Shown: piece after piece, positions 9,314-24,132 of the stretch
How the letters are laid out: each line of letters begins with the position of its first letter
Numbering within the stretch: position 1 is the first letter of the stretch
Source: Rhizobium leguminosarum
GTDB taxonomy: Bacteria; Pseudomonadota; Alphaproteobacteria; Rhizobiales; Rhizobiaceae
Length of the DNA stretch: 64,000 bases
Assembly (NCBI RefSeq): GCF_001652265.1
Contig: NZ_LWBS01000472.1
Coordinates: 141,111 to 205,110 of the forward strand
Direction of reading: 5' to 3'
Notes under the pieces: model-generated
Databases searched by the model: none
What the model was told of the DNA's origin: nothing
Seen by the model: the letters and a program-made list of their open reading frames with translations, nothing else
Position numbers and translations under genes: made by a program

Positions 9314-10356
9314 GGCGGTGGCGCGCGCTCCTGCTGGCGGCAACGGTCGCGCTTGCCCCGGCGGGCTCGCCCGCCGGGGCACAGCAGGCGATGATCAATG
9401 CTGGCGCATGGTCGGCCTACAAGGCGAAGTTTCTCGATGCGACCGGCCGCATCGTCGATAACGGCAACGGCAATATCAGCCACAGCGAAGGGCAGGGCTA
9501 TGGCATGCTGCTCGCCTATCTCTCAGCCAGCCCCGCCGATTTCGAACAGATCTGGTATTTTACCCGCACCGAACTGCTGCTGCGCGACGATGGCCTGGCC
9601 GTCTGGAAATGGGATCCGAACGGCAAGCCGCACGTCACCGACACCAACAACGCCTCGGACGGCGACATGCTGATCGCCTATGCGCTGGCGCTTGCCGGCA
9701 CGGCGTGGAAACGCAACGACTATATCCTCGCCGCCTCCCGAATGGCGCAGGCGCTGCTTGCCGAAACAGTCGTGCACTCGGCCGGCCACACACTCCTGTT
9801 GCCGGGGAGCCAGGGTTTTGCCGCTACCGACCGTGAGGATGGCCCCGTCGTCAACCCGTCCTACTGGATTTACGAGGCGATCCCGGTGATGGCGGCGCTC
9901 GCTCCGTCGGATGCCTGGCAAAAACTGACTGACGATGGCTTGGCGCTGTTGAAGACGATGCAGTTCGGCCCGCGCAAACTTCCAGCCGAATGGGTGAGTC
10001 TCAGCGGTCAGCCGCAGCCGGCGCAGGGTTTCGACGCCGAATTTGGCTATAACGCCATCCGCATCCCGCTCTATCTTGTTCGCGGCGGTGTCACCGACAA
10101 GACGCTGTTGACCCGTCTGCAGCAGGGGATGTCGCAAGATGGCGTTCCCGCCACCATCGATCTGACCACCGGCCGGACGAAGACCGTGTTGCCGGACCCA
10201 GGTTATCGAATTGTTAACGATGTTGTGGCCTGTGTAGTCGATGGGACCAAGTTGCCGATCTCGGCCCTGCAATTTGCGCCCGCACTCTATTATCCGTCCA
10301 CGCTTCAACTGTTGGGGCTGGCCTATATTGGGGAGAAGCATCCAGAGTGTCTGTGA
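9310..10356 (+). CDS. celC: Endo-beta-1,4-glucanase, glycoside hydrolase family 8 (CelC/BcsZ type)
   Basis: A 348-residue periplasmic or secreted cellulase with an N-terminal signal peptide ending near 'AGSPAGAQQ'. GH8 landmarks are present: the catalytic acid Glu60 in 'HSEGQGYGM' and the base in 'NASDGDMLIAYAL' (Asp117), plus 'NPSYWIYEAIPVMA'. In cellulose operons this enzyme trims nascent glucan; in R. leguminosarum bv. trifolii the homologue CelC2 also erodes the root hair tip during infection (known for the family, not shown here). The ATG overlaps the bcsB stop by 4 bases. It could stay functional even if bcsB is lost, provided transcription and re-initiation continue. Confidence 0.93.
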   Translation: MRRWRALLLAATVALAPAGSPAGAQQAMINAGAWSAYKAKFLDATGRIVDNGNGNISHSEGQGYGMLLAYLSASPADFEQIWYFTRTELLLRDDGLAVWKWDPNGKPHVTDTNNASDGDMLIAYALALAGTAWKRNDYILAASRMAQALLAETVVHSAGHTLLLPGSQGFAATDREDGPVVNPSYWIYEAIPVMAALAPSDAWQKLTDDGLALLKTMQFGPRKLPAEWVSLSGQPQPAQGFDAEFGYNAIRIPLYLVRGGVTDKTLLTRLQQGMSQDGVPATIDLTTGRTKTVLPDPGYRIVNDVVACVVDGTKLPISALQFAPALYYPSTLQLLGLAYIGEKHPECL

Positions 10357-14063: not shown

Positions 14064-14989
14064 CTGGTGGAGGTGTCCTCCGGTTCCGCATGACGGGCGG
14101 CGGGACGGTAGCGACGGCAGTAGTTCGGCGCACAGAGATGTGACCCGCCTTTCAGCACCCGTCTTGGGATTCGAACATTCGGTTCGCGGGGATCGAGGCT
14201 TGCTTCTCGGTCACCACCACGAGGGTTTTGACGAATGCAACACGATTTGGTCGCGGGTTGAGGATGGCGGGTTGACCAGTAGTCTGACGTCCACTCCCAG
14301 ACGTTGCCGATCATGTCGTAAAGACCGTACCCGTTCGCGGGGAAAGACCCAACCGGCGATGTCCTGTCGGCGCCGGGCCGCTTCGTGCTCATTGTGGGAA
14401 ACGTTCCCTGCCACGTATTGGCCATAAGCTTGCCATCTGGGTTGAATTCGTCGCCCCAGGCGAATTCGGCATCGTCAATCCCGCCACGCGCTGCCAGCTC
14501 CCACTCAGCTTCAGTTGGTAGATCCTTGCCAGCCCAATGGGCGTAAGCCAGGGCGTCGCGGTAGGCCACATGAACGACGGGATGGTCGAGCTTCCCACGA
14601 ATGTCACTGCGACCACCGTAGGGGTGTCGCCAGTCTGCGCCGAACTTGAACGACCACCATTGTGTTATGTCGGAGCCGATGACCGCCTTTGGTTGGGTGA
14701 ACACGAGCGAGCCGGCCCGCAGCATTCCGGGAAGTGCCCCTGGGTAGTCGGCAGCTTGTGGCGTCATTTCCGCGACGGTGACATGTCCGGTGGCTTTGAC
14801 GAAGGTGGCAAACTGGCGGTTTGTTACTGGCGTCGCGTCGATCCAGAAGCCGTCGACCTTGACCGGATGCGTAGGCGCTTCCTCCGGATAGTGCCTGTTC
14901 GATCCCATGGTGAACGTCCGTGCAGGCACCCAGGCCAGCCCGTCAAATGCGGGATCGTATGCATCTGCTGCGCTCATGGCCATGCCCAC
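14024..14989 (-). CDS. Formylglycine-generating enzyme (sulfatase maturase, SUMF1/FGE family)
   Basis: A 321-residue FGE-sulfatase domain protein. It shows 'VPARTFTMGSNRHYPEEAP' near the start, 'GNVWEWTSDYW' in the middle, and the C-terminal 'GGSHLCAPNYCRRYRPAAR' with the two active-site cysteines Cys286 and Cys291 spaced as in aerobic FGE, ending 'SHVGFRCVKR'. Such enzymes oxidise the sulfatase active-site cysteine to formylglycine. The divergent sulfatase at 15325 has exactly the required Cys-x-Ala-x-Arg site, so it is the natural substrate. No signal peptide is obvious; ATG codons at 14989, 14983 and 14977 are all possible starts. Confidence 0.92.
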   Translation of the reverse strand: MGMAMSAADAYDPAFDGLAWVPARTFTMGSNRHYPEEAPTHPVKVDGFWIDATPVTNRQFATFVKATGHVTVAEMTPQAADYPGALPGMLRAGSLVFTQPKAVIGSDITQWWSFKFGADWRHPYGGRSDIRGKLDHPVVHVAYRDALAYAHWAGKDLPTEAEWELAARGGIDDAEFAWGDEFNPDGKLMANTWQGTFPTMSTKRPGADRTSPVGSFPANGYGLYDMIGNVWEWTSDYWSTRHPQPATKSCCIRQNPRGGDREASLDPREPNVRIPRRVLKGGSHLCAPNYCRRYRPAARHAEPEDTSTSHVGFRCVKRTEI

Positions 14990-15324
14990 CTGAATGTCCC
15001 TGTGTGTATCTTTATGACATGCGGTTTCTGATCGTGCCTATTGTCCTTTAGGGAGGGTGTTCGCGACGGCTCCGATCGGTGGCAATTCGCAATCCCTCAC
15101 GGGGATTCCCCAAAGGGCAATATCTGCTTACGCTAATACAATGTAGAAAATGGATGGAAGAGTGGACATGCCCTCTTCGGCAAGTCGAGGGTGACCGCGC
15201 GCGCGGGTCGAGAGCCGCGTCTCTACCGAAATGATCTGTCGCCGACAAACCCTCTTTTGCTTCGACTCGTCTTTCAACCAACCTTGGTCGTCCATGTGGC
15301 GACCCCCTGAGGGAGGCATTCGAA
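14990..15324. other. Divergent intergenic region between maturase and sulfatase genes
   Basis: 335 bases without a gene. It must contain promoters for both directions. Visible signals are the palindrome GGGGA-T-TCCCC at 15101-15111, which is part of the 21-base motif annotated separately, the AT-rich stretch TTACGCTAATACAATGTAGAAAA at 15128-15150, and a GAGGGAGG ribosome binding site before the sulfatase. Confidence 0.6.
15104..15124 (-). promoter_or_regulatory. Shared island motif, copy 1 (upstream of maturase gene)
   Basis: On the minus strand this reads GATATTGC, then C, then CTTTGGGGAATC. The copy at 20631-20651 differs in one base only. It lies 114 bases before the maturase start and points toward it; the other copy lies 122 bases before the sensor-kinase remnant and points toward that. 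Equal orientation and spacing suggest a common promoter element or activator site. Confidence 0.6.
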
Positions 15325-17037
15325 ATGAGACGGACTACAAAGTTCATAACAGCAGCAATGGCGGTCGCCGGCAGCCTGTTGGCGAGCACGGCGGCAATAC
15401 ATGCGCAGGAGAACAGGAAGCCCAACATCCTGTTCATCATGGGTGACGACATCGGCTGGATGCAGCCGAGCATCTATCATGAGGGCCTGATGGTCGGGGA
15501 AACGCCCAACATCGATCGCATCGGCCACGAAGGCGCGAAGTTCATGACTTACTACGCCGAGCAGAGTTGCACGGCAGGGCGCACTGCCTTTATCACCGGC
15601 ATGCAGCCGGTGCGCGTCGGCATGGTTTTGCCGGAAATTCCCGGAAGCCCGTCCTACCTGCGGGCCGGCACGCCTCACCTCGCCAAGTTCCTGTACGATC
15701 TCGGCTACACGACAGGCGAGTTCGGCAAGAACCATCTCGGAGATACCACCGAATCCCTGCCGACGGCGCACGGCTTCCAGGAATATTGGGGCTACCTCTA
15801 CCACCTCGACGCCATGCAAGGGGTGAGCTTCCCCGACATCAACAAGACGGCGGTCGAGCAGGGGATCGCGCCGGCTTGCAAGAACACGCCGATCCCCGGA
15901 CTTGCGGAGAATCCCGCAGCCGTGGACCCGAAGACCACGACCTGCCTGACGCCGCCGCGTCCGATGCTGTCGTGCAAGTCGTCCGACGGATCCCCAGCCA
16001 ACCAGAGCTGCACCGACGAAGGTCCGCTGACGCTGGATCGCTCGAAGGGCATTGACGAGGAGATCTCGGCCAAGGTCATCGACTTCCTCGACCGCAACGA
16101 TCCCAAGAAGACCAACAAGCCGTTCTTTGTCTGGTACAACCCGGCGCGCATGCACATCACCACCGTGCTGCCGGACAAGTACCAGGCCATGGTGGGCGAG
16201 CCCGGCGGCAAGGACTGGGGCGTCAACGAAGCCGGCATGAAGCAGATGGACGACAATATCGGCTACGTCCTCAAGAAGCTCGAGGAGATGGGCCAGCTCG
16301 ACAACACCATCGTTGTCTTCACCACCGACAATGGCGCCGAGACGATCACCTTTCCCGATGGCGGCACCACCCCGTTCAAGGGCGGCAAGCTGAGCACCTG
16401 GGAGGGCGGCATGCGTGCGCCGCTGGTCGTTCGCTGGCCCGGGCACATCGAGCCCGGCACGGTCAAGAACGACATCTTCGCCTCGCTCGACTGGATGCCG
16501 ACATTGGTCGACATCGCTGGTGGACCCAAGGGTGATGGACTGAAGAAAGAGATCGAGGCGGGTGAGTATCCTGGGATCGTCAAGACCACGCTTGACGGGA
16601 TGGATCAGCGCGACTTCCTGGAAGGCAAGGCGCCATCCAAGCGCGACTCTTTCTTGTACTATTCCGGCAAGGACCCGTCGGCGGTCCGCTTCAAGAACTG
16701 GAAGATGTACTTCGCAATGGTGTCCGACGATCCGGCGGGCTTCATTCACGGAGTGCAGCCGTACTCGTGGACGCAGGTCGTCAACATCAAGCGCGATCCG
16801 TTCGAGACCTCGGTCGGAACACAGATCAAGACACTCTTCGGCATGGGCGGCGCCATTGCATCACCGTCCACCGCCTATGTCTATGACTGGAATATCCTGC
16901 CCATCGGCCAGCAGTTGTGGCTGAAACACCTCGAGAGCTACATCGACTTCCCGCCACTGCAGAACCCTGCAAGCTACAATCTGGAGCAAGTTATGCAGCA
17001 GGTAAAGGAGATGAAGACCTCTGGCGGCACCGACTGA
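15325..17037 (+). CDS. Type I sulfatase (arylsulfatase family), exported
   Basis: A 570-residue hydrolase of sulfate esters. Residues 1-28 are a signal peptide ('AVAGSLLASTAAIHAQ'), so it acts outside the cytoplasm. 'KPNILFIMGDDIGW' is the N-terminal metal-binding motif. 'SCTAGRTAFITG' contains Cys82 in the Cys-x-Ala-x-Arg signature, the residue converted to formylglycine. 'GKNHLGD' and 'VVFTTDNGAE' complete the active site. The maturase is encoded divergently 335 bases away. A fragment of a second sulfatase survives at 21826. Substrate unknown; an aryl sulfate or sulfated plant or soil compound is possible. Good ribosome binding site (GAGGGAGG). Confidence 0.93.
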   Translation: MRRTTKFITAAMAVAGSLLASTAAIHAQENRKPNILFIMGDDIGWMQPSIYHEGLMVGETPNIDRIGHEGAKFMTYYAEQSCTAGRTAFITGMQPVRVGMVLPEIPGSPSYLRAGTPHLAKFLYDLGYTTGEFGKNHLGDTTESLPTAHGFQEYWGYLYHLDAMQGVSFPDINKTAVEQGIAPACKNTPIPGLAENPAAVDPKTTTCLTPPRPMLSCKSSDGSPANQSCTDEGPLTLDRSKGIDEEISAKVIDFLDRNDPKKTNKPFFVWYNPARMHITTVLPDKYQAMVGEPGGKDWGVNEAGMKQMDDNIGYVLKKLEEMGQLDNTIVVFTTDNGAETITFPDGGTTPFKGGKLSTWEGGMRAPLVVRWPGHIEPGTVKNDIFASLDWMPTLVDIAGGPKGDGLKKEIEAGEYPGIVKTTLDGMDQRDFLEGKAPSKRDSFLYYSGKDPSAVRFKNWKMYFAMVSDDPAGFIHGVQPYSWTQVVNIKRDPFETSVGTQIKTLFGMGGAIASPSTAYVYDWNILPIGQQLWLKHLESYIDFPPLQNPASYNLEQVMQQVKEMKTSGGTD

Positions 17038-17121
17038 CCGCCACCTGGCGTGCGATACGGAGGGGCGGCCGGAAAGGCCGCCTCTCAAGACAAAATCCGA
17101 TATCCGACGAAGGGCGGGACG

Positions 17122-17781
17122 ATGAGCGATGTCATCCAAGCAGGTCGTGACGAAGCACGCTGGCCTCCGGTGATGGCGATCCTGGCGGTGTTCGCCCTTT
17201 TGGAGGTGCTGCCGCACCACGTCTATGCCATGCCGCGATGGGTGTCATACGCGGTCCTAGTAGCAGCTATCGTTCCAATGATCATGGTGACGGTGTCGAC
17301 CGACAAGGCCATGTGGCTGCGCATCGAGCATGTCGCCATCATGCTGCTTGCCAGTATCTACGCAGGCAATACGGCGGCGGAACTCGGAGATATGGTCGGG
17401 ATCATCACCGTGCATCCGCCCGAGACGCGATCAGTGTCGCTGTTGACGTCGTCATTTACCATCTGGATCACCAACGTTCTCACCTTCTCGCTGCTCTATT
17501 GGCAGATCGACGCGGATGGCCCCTCGCGCATCGCGCGTGGCATGGCGGGACAACCCGACTGGCTGTTTCCCCAGGCGTCGGCTCCCGAACTAGCGGCGCC
17601 AGACTGGCGGCCGCTCTACATCGATTATCTTTCCCTTGCGTTCAACACAGCGACCGCGTTCAGTCCCACCGACGTGCTGCCACTCGCCCGACGTGCGAAG
17701 GGGCTGATGATGCTCGAAAGTGCCATTTCATTGCTGACGCTCGTGCTCGTGGCCGCGCGTGCAGTCAATGTCATTCCGTAG
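17122..17781 (+). CDS. Small multi-pass membrane protein
   Basis: A 219-residue protein with five or six hydrophobic segments, including 'VMAILAVFALLEVLP', 'VSYAVLVAAIVPMIMVTV' and 'MLESAISLLTLVLVAARAVNVI'. The stretch 'YIDYLSLAFNTATAFSPTDVLPL' is a striking conserved-looking loop that I have seen in unnamed membrane proteins. The start at 17122 is preferred over 17050 because GGGCGGGACG precedes it and the extra residues have no protein character. It follows the sulfatase by 84 bases and is probably co-transcribed. Function unknown; transport or sensing linked to the sulfatase is only a guess. Confidence 0.7.
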   Translation: MSDVIQAGRDEARWPPVMAILAVFALLEVLPHHVYAMPRWVSYAVLVAAIVPMIMVTVSTDKAMWLRIEHVAIMLLASIYAGNTAAELGDMVGIITVHPPETRSVSLLTSSFTIWITNVLTFSLLYWQIDADGPSRIARGMAGQPDWLFPQASAPELAAPDWRPLYIDYLSLAFNTATAFSPTDVLPLARRAKGLMMLESAISLLTLVLVAARAVNVIP

Positions 17782-17836
17782 CGCCTCGCCGGCGCCGCGG
17801 TCGTCCGTTCGTGCCGAAAGGATCGAAGGTGCCCGT

Positions 17837-18268
17837 ATGTCAGTGGAAGCCGATCAGCTTTCAACAATGATCAATCACGCGGTCGCGCCGGCGTTCATGC
17901 TCAATGGCGTCGCGGCGATGGTGGCGGTTTTGGTCAATCGGATTTCCGGCGTCACCGAGCGGATCAGAAACCTCCGTGAGATCCACGAGAGTGACGTCGC
18001 CCGAGCCCCGCTGAAGAAGGGAATCGGGGAGCTGAGGCGGCGTGAGCGCCTATTGAACAGTGCATTGCACCTGGCTGTCCTGTCAGGGATAGGCGTGACG
18101 CTCCTACTCCTATTCGGCTTCGTCGTAGCCTTTTTGGGATACCGTCACGAACCAGGCGCCGCCGTACTATTTGTTGCGGCACTCTGCTTCCTGGCGGGGT
18201 CGCTCGTCCGATTCCTGCAGGACATCCGGCTGTCGCAAGGTGAGCACGACGACCGTCCGTTGCGCTGA
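17837..18268 (+). CDS. DUF2721-type membrane protein
   Basis: A 143-residue protein beginning at the ATG at 17837 (GAAGGTG upstream). It has an N-terminal amphipathic/hydrophobic segment ('APAFMLNGVAAMVAVLVNRISGVTERIRNL'), a charged middle ('ELRRRERLLNSALHLAVLSGI') and two C-terminal membrane helices, the layout of DUF2721. Function is unknown. It is 55 bases after the previous membrane gene and likely in the same transcript as the sulfatase. Confidence 0.75.
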   Translation: MSVEADQLSTMINHAVAPAFMLNGVAAMVAVLVNRISGVTERIRNLREIHESDVARAPLKKGIGELRRRERLLNSALHLAVLSGIGVTLLLLFGFVVAFLGYRHEPGAAVLFVAALCFLAGSLVRFLQDIRLSQGEHDDRPLR

Positions 18269-18321
18269 CCGCCGAATTGCTCAAGGCCCTCTCGCCTTCA
18301 CTAATCTAAAGCGTGTCTCAC

Positions 18322-18485
18322 TTATTCCGCCTCATAACCTGCTGTGAAGAAATTCAGTCATTCCTCGACGGAGAAGATGCCGACAATCTCACCCAGGGCT
18401 TTGTTATTGTATCTAAGCTTCGTGCGGCACGTTTTCGCAGTAAGGTCTTGAGCTTGGAGAATGCCATCTCGATGGGTTGAGGTCG
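18322..18485 (-). pseudogene. IS630-family transposase, 3' remnant
   Basis: Read on the minus strand, the piece encodes the end of an IS630-type DDE transposase: 'DLNP' then, after a one-base shift, 'IEMAFSKLKTLLRKRAARSLDTIT', then another frame with 'KALGEIVGIFSVEE' and finally 'FFTAGYEAE' and a stop. At least two frameshifts and loss of the whole N-terminal part show a dead remnant. The 'DLNPIE' glutamate is the third acidic residue of the DDE triad. The region 18269-18604 holds nothing else recognisable. Confidence 0.7.
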
Positions 18486-18604
18486 GATCAATAGCCCGGC
18501 AGGGCGCGGCAGAATGCCTGAAGCTGTGGCTCGTCGGCTTCAGTCTTGCCTGTCCTCCTGCTGGGAGGGACACGCCACGAAGGTGACGTTGTCCCTTCCT
18601 GAGA

Positions 18605-19423
18605 TCAATAGCAAGGCGGGTAGGGATAGTAGCCGCACTGCGGACCGTTGTAGTAGGAATTGTAGTAGGGCCGCGCTGCAGCGGCTCCAATGGCAGCACC
18701 GGCGACCACGCCCGCCGCGACGGGAGCGCCGCGATACCAGGCCCCGTGGTAGACGGGCGCATGCCAGTAGGTACCTCCGACACGGTTGATGTTCGTGTCG
18801 CCGATATGCACGTCGTCTCCACGGAAATCACCTCCCGCGAAGTCTCCGCCGCGGAAGCCGCCGCCGCCGAAGCTGCCGCCGCCAAAGCCGCCGCCATGGA
18901 AGCCCCCCCCTCCGCCGAAACTTCCACCGAAGTGATCGATGAAGAGGGCCGCGGGTCCGGTCGCACCGCTGAGGCTTCCCTCCAGAATGGCGATATCGAA
19001 TGTCAGTGTCGTGCCGTCGAGTTTCGGAGTCTTCAGCGTGACGACGGTGTCACTGACATCCGATCCGTCACCGCCCAGCACCGACACTGTTGCGTTCGGA
19101 GGATCGACGGCAAAATTGTCCTTGCCGTCGTCCCATTGCATAATGAACTGTTCAGTCTTCACATGCCCGGCAGCTCGCACCGGCCGGTCGGCGAAGACGA
19201 TCGAATTGGCCGAGACGCCAGTCAGAATGAGCTTTCCGTTTTCGATTTTGGCGCCAGCCGAATTGATCACTGCCAATGACGGCACCGGACCTGTTGGCGT
19301 GACTTGGCCAATTGCCTTTTCGAGCGGTACGTGCGGCTTCTTCGGGGCGTCCTGCGCAAAGCCAGCGGAGGCCAGGGCGAAACTTCCGGCGAAGATGAGC
19401 GTGGTGAAGCGGTCGACTTTCAT
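18605..19423 (-). CDS. Secreted protein with glycine-rich tail
   Basis: A 272-residue protein from the ATG at 19423, selected because GGAGGATATTCGCC precedes it and a signal peptide follows ('TTLIFAGSFALASAGFAQ'). Residues about 25-160 form a beta-rich domain ('NSIVFADRPVRAAGHVKTEQF', 'MQWDDGKDNFAVDPPNATVSVL'). Residues about 170-205 are runs of Gly with Phe, Ser and His ('GGGGFHGGGFGGGSFGGGG'). The tail is rich in Tyr, Pro and Gly. I do not recognise the family. It stands alone on the minus strand between a transposase remnant and the HAD pseudogene. Confidence 0.7.
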   Translation of the reverse strand: MKVDRFTTLIFAGSFALASAGFAQDAPKKPHVPLEKAIGQVTPTGPVPSLAVINSAGAKIENGKLILTGVSANSIVFADRPVRAAGHVKTEQFIMQWDDGKDNFAVDPPNATVSVLGGDGSDVSDTVVTLKTPKLDGTTLTFDIAILEGSLSGATGPAALFIDHFGGSFGGGGGFHGGGFGGGSFGGGGFRGGDFAGGDFRGDDVHIGDTNINRVGGTYWHAPVYHGAWYRGAPVAAGVVAGAAIGAAAARPYYNSYYNGPQCGYYPYPPCY

Positions 19424-19535
19424 GGCGAATATCCTCCCAGTTGGAACGGGCAGGAAGCCCGTCACCTTAATGCACGTTGTTGAAGTCTGATGTCACAAGC
19501 GTTAGGCACGCCGCCCAGCCGAGGCGCACACAGTC

Positions 19536-20545
19536 CTAGTTCTTGAAGATCTGCTTCCAGTCGTTCTTCATGTCGACGACGGTCCAGCCGGTGATCGCGG
19601 CCGCGTCCAGCGCCTTGTCGAGGCGTCCGAAATCGGTCTTACGGTCATAGGCGTATTCGCGCTCCGCATCGGTGTGATGAACAAGCATCCCGAGGCGCGC
19701 CGGCGCACCCGCCATCGTCGTCCATTGGAGCATTTCGAGATCGCCGTCGGAATTGCCGAACGCTGCGATGGGGCGGCGGCCGATCTCCTGGTTGATCCCG
19801 ACAGGCTTGCCTGCCTTGTCGTCGATGAAGTTGACTTCCGGCAGACGGAACAGGGTCGGCGTGTCGTCCTGCATCTTGAACTCGGTCTTGATTGAGGAGC
19901 CGACAACCTGCTCTGGCGGGACGCCGTAGACCTTCTCCGTCCATGGCCGCATGAACTCTACGCCGCCACCCGACACGATGTAGGTCTTGAAGCCGTTGGC
20001 GCGCAAATAGGACAGCAGTTCGACCATCGGCTGGTAGACGAGCTCGGCGTAGGGCCGCTTGAATCGAGGGTCGCGTGCCGTGGAAAGCCAGTCGGTCACG
20101 ACCTTCTGGAAATCCTCAGTCGTCATTCCCGCATGGGTGACCATGATGAGTTCCAGAAGGCCTTTTTCGCCCGATGCGGCAAGGGTTTTCATGTCGCCGT
20201 CGAGCACCGCCTTGAACGGCTGGACGTTTTTCCATTCAGGATGCTGCGGCGCGAGCGTCTTCACGCGGTCCAAGGCGAAGGCAAGTTGGGTGTACATGGG
20301 ATGCTCGACCCAAAGGGTCCCATCATTGTCGAATACTGCAATCCGTTCGGGCTCCGGGACGAAATCGGTCGAGCCCTGTTGGACACTCTCTCGACGAAGG
20401 AGACTATCGCCTGTTTCGGACCGGTGTCGTTCCAGGAGGGCAGAGGATCGCTTTGTGCATACGCGGACGCCGTGAGGAAAAGTGCTGCGATGACGACCGA
20501 AATCACATCGCGTGCCGATTTGATGAGGTGGCGGATAGTGAACAT
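19536..20545 (-). pseudogene. HAD-family acid phosphatase-like protein, frameshifted
   Basis: The gene starts at the ATG at 20545 (GAGGGT upstream) with a signal peptide ('VISVVIAALFLTASAYAQ') and 'DPLPSWNDTGPKQAIVSFVERVS'. One base appears lost between 20379 and 20378, and the rest continues in another frame: 'GSTDFVPEPERIAVFDNDGTLWVEHP' (motif I, DxD), then 'YIVSGGGVEFMRPW' (motif II), 'GRRPIAAFGNSDGDLEMLQW' (motif IV) to 'WKQIFKN'. Apart from that base the protein is complete. It would be an exported phosphatase; relatives often sit near sulfatases, as I recall. A sequencing error would look the same. Confidence 0.75.
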
Positions 20546-20630
20546 TGGGTGTACCCTCAAGTGAGAGAGCGCCCAGCGAATTGCACTCCGACCCGGCGCC
20601 GCCCAACTCTAGCGAATGTGATCGCCCTCC

Positions 20631-20651
20631 GATATTGCACTTTGGGGAATC
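20631..20651 (+). promoter_or_regulatory. Shared island motif, copy 2 (upstream of sensor-kinase remnant)
   Basis: GATATTGC, then A, then CTTTGGGGAATC; 20 of 21 bases match the minus-strand copy at 15104-15124. It lies 85 bases upstream of the HAD start on the other strand and 122 bases before the sensor-kinase start, in the orientation matching copy 1. Confidence 0.6.
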
Positions 20652-20773: not shown

Positions 20774-21175
20774 ATGGGTTGGTCCTTGCTGGCGTCGCTC
20801 CTGCGAATTGCTTCGAATTCCTACGGTGTCACTGCCGATACGTCGCCCGCACTCCTCGATCGGCCGCCGCGGGTTCTAATACTTTATGCCTATGATGAGC
20901 GGATCGCGGCAACAACCACTGCCGGAGAAGCGTTGCGCAGCCGCCTGCTGGAAGCGACAGATGGCAAGATCGATCTGTTTTCAGAGTTTCTGGATCTGTC
21001 GAGGTTTCCGGAAGCCGATCATGTCGCACGCATAGGACGATACCTGGCGCAGAAGTACGCCCCTCGTCGCCCGGATGTGATCGTCGCACTCGGCAAGGAG
21101 TCTGCCAGCTTCATATCGACGAACCGCAGCGCGATCGCTCCCGATGCGCGGGCGAAGCGGAAGTCTTCGGGCTGA
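20774..21175 (+). pseudogene. Sensor kinase N-terminal fragment
   Basis: Starting at the ATG at 20774, about 130 residues remain. The part 'RPPRVLILYAYDERIAATTTAGEALRSRLLEATDGKIDLFSEFLDLSRFP' followed by 'RPDVIVALGKESASFI' looks like the periplasmic-binding-protein-like sensor region that opens some rhizobial histidine kinases. After about 'SAIAPDA' (21149) the sequence jumps to the end of a LuxR-type regulator in another frame, and this frame closes at 21175. The kinase core is absent, so the protein cannot signal. Confidence 0.7.
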
Positions 21176-21354
21176 TCGTCCGTGGCAAGCTCAACAAGCA
21201 GATCGCCTATACCCTTGGCATATCGGAGAGGAGGGTGAAGGTGCACCGCCATCAGGTTATGGAGAAGCTCGGAGTAGGATCGCTGGCCGAGGCAGTGTCC
21301 ATAGCCGCGAGTATCGATCTCACCGGTCGGGGCGCATCGTGGCCTGGGATTTGA
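21151..21354 (+). pseudogene. LuxR/FixJ-type response regulator, C-terminal fragment
   Basis: The frame from 21151 reads 'GEAEVFGLIVRGKLNKQIAY', then 'LGISERRVKVHRHQVMEKLGVGSLAEAV' and stops at 21354. This is a complete LuxR-type helix-turn-helix without the receiver half or a start codon. It directly abuts the sensor-kinase fragment, so one deletion took the end of the kinase and the front of its regulator. The regulator was probably the partner acting on this island. Confidence 0.75.
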
Positions 21355-21442
21355 TTGGGCGACCTTCCCCTTAGGACAATATGAATCGAGATCTAGCAGG
21401 CCTACTGTGCCGAGGAGCCCGTAATCACGAGGGAGGCTTGAG

Positions 21443-22585: not shown

Positions 22586-23447
22586 TCAGTCGCGCGTTGG
22601 GGCCGAGAATGGAATATTCACCGTCAGAAACACGCTGCCGCCGCTAGTTCGGTTCTCGACCCCGAACACCTCGCTCAGTTCGCTGGCTGCCTCCCGCTCG
22701 CCCGTGCCGGTCGCATGCGTCACCGCGCCGTCGACCACAAGTCCATTGCGGTTCTCCATCAGCGCATGCCCCAGATAGGCCAGCCGGCTCTCCTGGCCCT
22801 TGCTCTTGCGGTAGAGCCGGGCATCCTGGTCGGTGGTCGAGGCGTGCGTCTCGTTCGAGCGCTTCTCCTTGCGGAAGTCACGCTCGCCATTGCGCCCGCC
22901 CTCCGGTGGCTCGCCATCGTCGCCACCTGCGCCATCCTTGGCGCGAAAGCTCTTCATCGAGGCAAACGCCTTCAGCATCGTCCCGTCGACCGAGAAGTGC
23001 TCTGCGCTCGAAAGCTTCTTCACCGCCGGCTGTGCAAGCAGCGCCGACAGGAAGCCTTGCGCCACCTCCGTCGTCAGAACCCGGTCGCGATTATGCGTGA
23101 ACACCGTCGGATGCCACACCGCATCATCGATCCTAAGACCCACGAAACCAGCGGAACAACAGGTCGAACTCAAGCCGTTCCATCAATTGCCGCTCAGAGC
23201 GGATCGAATACAGCATCTGCAGCAGCACCGCCCGCAACAGCCGTTCCGGCGCGATCGACGGCCGACCCGTCTTGGCATAGAGCCCATCGAACGACCCATC
23301 CAGCGCCGCAAGCGATGCATTCACCAACCGGAGCATCGCACGAAGCCGGTGCCCTGCCGGAACCCGTGCCTCAAGGTCGACATACGAAAACAGCGATCCC
23401 GTCCGCTCATCCCCGCCACGCATGCAAATCAATCCCCGCTGTTGCAA
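22586..23447 (-). pseudogene. IS5-family transposase, frameshifted and truncated
   Basis: The N-terminal part (23447 to about 23150) reads 'MRGGDERTGSLFSYVDLEARVPAGH' and 'SERQLMERLEFDLLFRWF'. A one-base shift then gives 'VGLRIDDAVWHPTVFTHNRDR', 'KKLSSAEHFSVDGTMLKAFASMKSF' (first DDE aspartate) and 'GLVVDGAVTHATGTGEREAA' (second). After about 22690 the homology stops, so the last third with the catalytic glutamate is missing. Not able to transpose. Confidence 0.8.
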
Positions 23448-23498
23448 CCGCAGGGAATCATGGCTTCAACTCAAAAGCCAGAGAGTTTTTCAGCAGCC
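22690..23498 (-). mobile_element. IS5-type insertion sequence, left end lost
   Basis: The right terminal repeat GAGTTTTTCAGCAGCC (23483-23498) is intact and typical of this IS5 subgroup. No reverse copy is found near 22550-22700, which agrees with loss of the 3' end of the transposase. The right end sits one base from the stop codon of the methyltransferase gene. The stretch 22524-22690 contains no recognisable gene. Confidence 0.7.
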
Positions 23499-23499
23499 T

Positions 23500-24132
23500 T
23501 CAGTGCGGTTTTTGAGCGATCGCGATCATCGATTTCGCCAGCAGTGGAATTCTCCCGACATATTCGAAGTCGACGCCTTCGAAGCCTGTTTCGACGAGCA
23601 GCGTGCTGAGCGTTTCGGGAGACCAGAACTTGATATGGCCATTGTCCTTGAGGGGCATAAAATGGTCGTCCATCTTTCCGCTCACGGCCAGAGCCAGATT
23701 TTTCCAGTAGCCGTGAAACGGCGTCGATACGACCGCGATGCCGCCGGGCTTCACCAGATCGTAAATGGTCGTCGAGAAAGCCTTGGGATCATAGACATGT
23801 TCCACCACTTCAAGACTGATGACCGCATCGAAGGTCCCATACCGGCTGGATAGATCTTCGTAACCGGAACCGATTTCCAGCGGAAGATCGGGGTGGGCCA
23901 TTCTCGCTTTCGCGATGCCGTCCTTCGAGGGATCGACACCGACGACGTCATAGCCTTTTTCCGCAAGCACGGCTGCAGCGCCGCCGGTGCCGCAACCGAG
24001 GTCGAAGACTGCCGTTTCATTTGCCTCCTGGAAACTGTTCTCGAGAACATCGACAACGGCCGGCAAAATATAGGAATGGGCGGTCGCCGGCTTGGCGTGT
24101 ACATAGGTAGTAGCGTCTAGTTCGATAGACAT
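23500..24132 (-). CDS. Class I SAM-dependent methyltransferase (UbiG-like)
   Basis: A 210-residue methyltransferase starting at the ATG at 24132 (CAGGAGGTAAA before it). Motif I is 'VFDLGCGTGGAAAVLAEKG', motif II 'VVGVDPSKDGI', followed by 'FDAVISLEVVEHVYDP' and 'LVKPGGIAVVSTPFHGYW', the pattern of UbiG/methyltransf_11-23 enzymes. The substrate is unknown; a surface sugar, lipid or small metabolite are all possible. Its stop codon lies one base from the terminal repeat of an IS5-type element, so the last residues may have changed. It has no operon partner. Confidence 0.88.
   Translation of the reverse strand: MSIELDATTYVHAKPATAHSYILPAVVDVLENSFQEANETAVFDLGCGTGGAAAVLAEKGYDVVGVDPSKDGIAKARMAHPDLPLEIGSGYEDLSSRYGTFDAVISLEVVEHVYDPKAFSTTIYDLVKPGGIAVVSTPFHGYWKNLALAVSGKMDDHFMPLKDNGHIKFWSPETLSTLLVETGFEGVDFEYVGRIPLLAKSMIAIAQKPH

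Follow-up and report, generated by a model that had tools for sequence, protein, structure and literature searches.

Genes and a repeated motif in the window

The window analysed here is a stretch of 64,000 nucleotides from Rhizobium leguminosarum (assembly GCF_001652265.1, contig NZ_LWBS01000472.1, positions 141,111 to 205,110 of the forward strand), which carries genes for a sulfatase, its maturase, a HAD-family hydrolase and a receiver-only response regulator, together with remnants of a sensor kinase and of a FixJ/LuxR-type regulator (Table 1). A 21-base motif, GATATTGC-C/A-CTTTGGGGAATC, is present at 15104-15124 (-) and 20631-20651 (+), the two copies differing only at the n position; the distance to the maturase start at 14989 is 114 bases for the first, and that to the ATG at 20774 is 122 bases for the second. 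These copies were found exactly as a first-pass annotation of the DNA had described them, and its view that such a match is far beyond chance also holds, since a search allowing up to 3 mismatches returned exactly 2 matches in the 64 kb, whereas 100 shuffles averaged 0.01 and none of them had two. On the evidence presented below, the motif is probably the operator half of a class II promoter activated by a FixJ-type regulator, which would switch on the genes of the cluster together.

The source genome was searched as 8.18 Mb in 472 contigs. At up to 3 mismatches, the 21-mer recurs on contig C426 (1 change) and on contig C327 (3 changes). The core TCCCNNNAGNNCAATA has 7 exact matches, four in the window (15106 +, 15039 -, 20633 -, 21365 +), two on C426 and one on C327, and all 7 adjoin one gene set composed of sulfatases, maturase, HAD hydrolase and two-component genes. 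No exact core copy was found away from this gene set in the genome, and the test that the first-pass annotation had proposed, a search for motif copies unrelated to these genes, therefore came out in favour of its proposal. Two of the window copies, at 15039-15055 (-, CTCCCTAAAGGACAATA) and 21365-21381 (+, TTCCCCTTAGGACAATA), are weaker matches to the 21-mer and had been overlooked. The core pattern TTCCCNNNAGNNCAATAT gives 6 sites in the same genome. With up to 1 mismatch, the core matches rise to 46, including the seven exact ones, versus 50 for the reversed pattern; the looser patterns RATATTGNNCTNNNGGGRATC (2 mismatches) and NTCCCNNNAGNNCAATAN (1 mismatch) brought out C426:38501 and the maturase site, the rest being at about background.

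Table 1. Predicted activator sites, -10-like hexamers and associated genes in the window
Feature	Position	Strand	Sequence or match	Remarks
Activator site 1 (predicted)	15106..15122	+	TTCCCCAAAGGGCAATA	within first copy of the 21-base motif; would serve sulfatase
-10-like hexamer	15144..15149	+	TAGAAA	fixed spacing from site 1; transcription start predicted near 15156
Sulfatase SulfA, 570 aa	15325..17037	+	Pfam PF00884, 7.2e-42	formylglycine-type motif CTAGR
Activator site 2 (predicted)	15039..15055	-	CTCCCTAAAGGACAATA	would serve maturase
Weak -10-like hexamer	15012..15017	-	TCATAA	fixed spacing from site 2; transcription start predicted near 15005
Formylglycine-generating maturase, 321 aa	14024..14989	-	Pfam PF03781, 2.7e-79	
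Activator site 3 (predicted)	20633..20649	-	TTCCCCAAAGTGCAATA	within second copy of the 21-base motif; would serve HAD gene
-10-like hexamer	20606..20611	-	TAGAGT	fixed spacing from site 3; transcription start predicted near 20599
HAD-family hydrolase	19536..20545	-	PF12710 on 19536-20363	start about 20545
Sensor kinase remnant	20774..21150	+	matches q41-137 of intact kinase	part of periplasmic sensor domain only
FixJ/LuxR-type regulator remnant	21151..21339	+	73% to q144-206 of intact regulator	C-terminal DNA-binding part only
Activator site 4 (predicted)	21365..21381	+	TTCCCCTTAGGACAATA	would serve receiver-only regulator
-10-like hexamer	21403..21408	+	TACTGT	fixed spacing from site 4; transcription start predicted near 21415
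Receiver-only response regulator, 127 aa	21443..21826	+	PF00072, 8.7e-20	

Anatomy and direction of the predicted operator

A set of 45 non-redundant sites was compiled from the window, from other loci of the same genome and from relatives. It covers 30 loci chosen by hand, nearly all for having system genes and mostly from Rhizobium and Mesorhizobium, with the loci L167-L201 of the genome-wide scan standing outside it. Of these sites, 42 were kept, and L081, L101 and L151 were set aside with no system gene then seen beside them; L081 (genome G456) was later found to lie behind a regulator gene of 53.5% identity, and L101 ahead of a DUF1254/DUF1214 gene. The sequence TTCCCGAAAGGGCAATC, seen in 5/12 genomes, was set aside, as its last base breaks the core. 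Read from the first T, the 42-site consensus is TTCCCCAAAGGNCAATA(T/G)C, followed by low-information columns 20-38 and by a -10-like TANNNT from column 39, which thus starts 38 bases after the first T of the motif (T39 32/42, A40 36/42, T44 31/42). TA stands at column 39 in 30/42 sites and TANNNT in 25/42, with 6/7 and 5/7 in the source genome alone, and these counts were reached by none of 5000 and 20000 shuffles. Given that the 42 sites are related by descent, the seven sites of the source genome provide the cleaner test.

On the other side of the motif, no -10 was found at any fixed spacing, the best TA counts of 2/7 and 6/42 being no better than shuffles. Judged by this register, the element is directional, and its direction is opposite to the one first read, in which it pointed to the maturase and the kinase remnant. 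From register and gene order together, the genes that the 21-base copies would serve are the sulfatase starting at 15325 (+) and the HAD gene starting at about 20545 (-), rather than maturase and kinase. Transcription would start about 7 nt past each -10 hexamer. Assuming that the start is column 51, TTCCC falls at -50 to -46 and CAATAT at -38 to -33, and the dyad would be centred near -43.5, close to the usual position of a class II activator. The feature that marks such promoters, a site on or next to the -35 region that keeps a constant distance from a sigma-70-like -10, is found among the predicted sites (30/42 with TA). A perfect dyad, TGTCC-N4-GGACA, occurs at two loci of a sister clade of regulators.

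Target genes and occurrence in other genomes

The first gene ahead of the 42 sites is a receiver gene in 11 cases, SulfA in 8, another sulfatase in 8, a HAD gene in 7 and a maturase in 4, with no gene ahead of 3 sites and an antisense gene ahead of 1. Control of the sensor kinase, as initially proposed, finds no counterpart in this distribution, as the kinase lies ahead in 0/42 sites and directly behind in 11/42. The maturase has a forward site of its own at 15039-15055, and comparable maturase sites are found in L099 and L160. In relatives, five classes of genes have this element ahead of them. The proposal of a dedicated activator site common to sulfatase and two-component genes is supported, both by the 7/7 core copies that adjoin the set and by the recurrence of the site in relatives.

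In 247 genomes of the family, the pattern TTCCCNNNAGNNCAATAT gave 30 matches in 19 genomes, versus 1 for the reversed control, and 15/30 of these first-pass matches had system genes in their 3-kb loci. An order-wide search with TTCCCYWWAGGNCAATA yielded 9 sites in 4/397 genomes (4 in the source genome, 3 in G128, 1 in G067 and 1 in G456; reversed control 1). The site does recur next to this gene set in other rhizobia, the co-occurrence with the sulfatase/two-component group that the first-pass annotation had proposed to look for. A genome-wide scan returned at least 120 sites in at least 115 stretches. Among the matches listed, 91/120 have no system gene within 1.5 kb and come mostly from outside rhizobia; these look to be mostly chance matches, with the column-39 TA in only 4/91 of them versus 19/29 of the sites near a system gene. 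The exceptions among the 91 are L101 and L168, which belong to DUF1254/DUF1214 genes, and L151, where the target side falls outside the locus. In the fetched loci of G151, G213 and G238, the variants of the site were accompanied by no good -10 and by no system gene.

Sites ahead of DUF1254/DUF1214 genes were found in three rhizobia, R. leguminosarum USDA 2370 (L168), G128 (L294) and Ensifer sp. IC3342 (L101; a different member), and these genes may represent an extra target class. At column 39, L294 has TACCAT, L168 has TA one base later and L101 has CACGTT. The four DUF1254 matches of the source genome (fetched loci L302, L308, L316 and L321) carry no site, with a best score of 7.9 versus at least 24.5 for its seven sites.

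The candidate regulator

An intact regulator gene related to the window remnant lies on contig C426 (L005 6529-7161, -) and encodes a protein of 210 aa (P0002) with Response_reg and GerE domains. A protein search with it in the 247 family genomes (E <= 1e-45) gave 20 matches, picked without motif bias. All five regulators of at least 57% identity (G000, G128, G147, G043 and G175) have a site within 1.5 kb scoring at least 26, versus 0/15 of those of at most 47% identity, none of which scores above 7. In a tree of 44 regulators, 13/13 with a site score of at least 20 fall in one supported clade of 19 rows (100/99). The labels of this tree mix regulators found by motif and by protein search, and since several were found through the motif, it constitutes weaker evidence than the 20-match search. 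The remaining six rows comprise a G456 regulator of 50% identity (site score 13.2) and a five-row subclade, in which the operator appears to take another form: L245 and L246 have TGTCC-N4-GGACA-ATA between the regulator and receiver genes, and dyads of a similar kind, near-perfect palindromes around TTGTCC-N4-GGACAA, lie next to the regulator gene in L247 (18868-18887) and L255 (4261-4280), with none seen in L256. In G456, which lies outside the family, a full site stands about 25 bases past the end of the gene for the 53.5% regulator.

These associations make the FixJ-type (LuxR-type) regulator of the cluster the likely binder of the site. The first-pass annotation had named a LuxR-type regulator, which agrees in family with the 5/5 versus 0/15 association, and had singled out the fragment at 21151, which we reject as the acting regulator given that it keeps only the C-terminal DNA-binding part; its intact C426 homologue is the candidate instead.

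The C426 neighbourhood is related to that of the window and holds an intact kinase, the intact FixJ/LuxR-type regulator, a receiver-only regulator and an intact HAD gene, as well as a multihaem cytochrome/TPR protein and a DUF481-like protein. The sulfatase beside the intact kinase is reduced there to an N-terminal stub (L005 about 9350-9640), with a stop codon before the HAD gene, and C327 carries a second sulfatase with a site and a receiver remnant. The window kinase keeps about 100 matched sensor residues and then runs directly into the DNA-binding end of the regulator. The window cluster accordingly resembles a degraded homologue of the one on C426. Its HAD gene matches the C426 copy by tblastn in two pieces and two frames (q1-60 and q57-336), with an apparent frameshift near residue 57-60 despite an intact-looking promoter. 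Other window proteins of the gene set are a DUF2721 protein, a DUF992 protein and two unassigned proteins. The open reading frames at 22586-23515 resemble a broken insertion-sequence transposase; 22586-23173, the only one of them scanned, gave no Pfam match. In one of the two clusters of G128 (L069 6492-7089), the regulator match is broken into three pieces, which suggests that this cluster too has decayed.

A model for coordinated activation

In the model that we favour, a kinase whose periplasmic part has a predicted substrate-binding-protein fold responds to a signal and phosphorylates the FixJ-type response regulator. The fold was recognised with VIA-align, matches to the whole model in Foldseek being dominated by kinase domains. 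The phosphorylated regulator would bind the imperfect inverted repeat TTCCC-N4-GGNCA-ATA, centred near -43.5 and overlapping the -35 region, and recruit RNA polymerase to the TANNNT -10 that lies 38 bp after the first T. One regulator would in this way turn on the sulfatase, the sulfatase maturase, the HAD hydrolase and the receiver-only regulator together. With the window kinase and regulator genes collapsed, the four window sites would need to be served in trans by the intact C426 pair, which would have to be expressed.

Several observations weigh against this model. The column-39 TA is missing in 12/42 sites, the left half-site TTCCC is an imperfect mirror of the strong right half-site GGNCA-ATA, and for 15/30 of the first-pass family matches the 3-kb locus contains no system gene. 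Two good sites precede sulfatases in G064 (Mesorhizobium sp. L-8-3), whose best regulator match is 43% identical; a single site occurs in G067 (Mesorhizobium sp. YM1C-6-2), where the regulators reach only 44-45%; and in G156 two sites flank a truncated regulator, the best full one being of 45%. The second G456 regulator, of 50%, lies inside the same clade and has no good site nearby. The G064 and G067 sites precede sulfatases that include SulfA copies 88-89% identical to that of the window, and either a looser regulator or a recent transfer of the sulfatase with its promoter and without its regulator would explain them. Sites without a close regulator orthologue in these two genomes, the 50% G456 regulator without a site and the DUF1254/DUF1214 sites, which are located away from the cluster in the loci covered, would also fit a real activator operator that is bound by another regulator encoded elsewhere, the linked FixJ-type regulator being a mere neighbour. 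We consider this unlikely in view of the identity association of 5/5 versus 0/15, of the change in operator form at the same gene position in the neighbouring subclade (L245 and L246) and of G456, where the site again stands just behind a regulator gene.

The other alternatives fare worse. That the site drives maturase and sensor kinase, possibly bidirectionally, is improbable: both 21-base copies do lie between divergent genes, the core is quasi-palindromic and some effect on the kinase promoter is possible, but that side lacks a fixed-spacing -10, a separate forward site precedes the maturase and in none of the 42 cases is the kinase the gene ahead. Strong sequence conservation at a constant distance from a -10-like hexamer could also suggest an alternative sigma factor promoter (ECF or sigma-54), which the first-pass annotation had allowed for. 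This has very little in its favour, since the motif, 38 bp upstream of the -10 from its first T and 19 bp from CAATATC, is too far away for a -35 element, and columns 20-38, at most 0.26 bit each, leave no second sigma element visible. The sigma-54 consensus is given as TGGCACG-N4-TTGCW in PMC4999443, and no such conserved columns occur from -12 to 59 around the site. Finally, seven copies in one genome might be the residue of a dispersed repeat (REP/MITE-like) or of duplication without any regulatory role, which we practically dismiss: the copies are tied to the gene set, their upstream flanks are only 14-51% identical pairwise, spacer identity exceeds 0.5 only in two homologous promoter pairs (0.68 and 0.63; next 0.47), and in relatives five gene classes are preceded by the element.

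The first-pass idea of an activator is partly supported, being right in outline, although the proposed direction, the kinase as a target and the fragment as the regulator are not borne out. The underlying observation holds and extends to a predicted regulon in which a single sensor system probably activates several scattered genes jointly. A broader proposal, which we would rate slightly short of even, is that of an undescribed rhizobial FixJ-type regulon, where a kinase with a captured ABC-binding-protein sensor would command sulfatases, maturase, HAD hydrolase and, in some strains, DUF1254/DUF1214 proteins. Sulfatase genes would have spread between genera with their operator, so that decayed or transplanted copies, as in the window, Mesorhizobium L-8-3 and YM1C-6-2, may stay wired to a related host regulator elsewhere. 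The analysis yields a precisely defined predicted operator along with a candidate regulator, a list of genes and predicted transcription starts. It also provides an example of an operator whose form seems to vary with the regulator subclade, and one of a cluster that keeps functional-looking sites after losing its regulators.

Comparison with known systems

The FixJ-dependent fixK and nifA promoters of rhizobia likewise involve a FixJ-subfamily regulator and a site that contains TTTCCC and precedes an AATWT element near -33. In PMC4999443, FixJ is reported to bind over -69 to -44 and -57 to -31, with the sites TAAGTAATTTCCCTTA and GTAGTTTCCC and a CSNAATWT element at -33 of fixK promoters, a layout similar to that of the operator described here. 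The targets here are sulfatase genes instead of fixK, and the sensor is predicted to have a substrate-binding-protein fold. The FixLJ system proper was rejected as an identity for the pair, since the regulator scores 180.4 bits versus the curated FixJ cut-off of 255 (NF006900) and the kinase 160.4 versus the FixL cut-off of 850 (NF041777). The closest solved relative of the regulator, matched over nearly its whole length, is 1yio (E 6.2e-46), which we take to be StyR of styrene degradation; StyR controls different genes and presumably has a different operator.

Searches of open-licence papers brought up no dedicated activator of sulfatase genes in rhizobia, nor a description of sulfatase and maturase each with a shared activator promoter, nor TTCCCCAAAGG together with sulfatase. 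As in known sulfatase/maturase gene pairs, a type I sulfatase (CTAGR) adjoins its maturase here; unlike in those pairs, each of the two genes carries its own copy of a shared predicted activator promoter.

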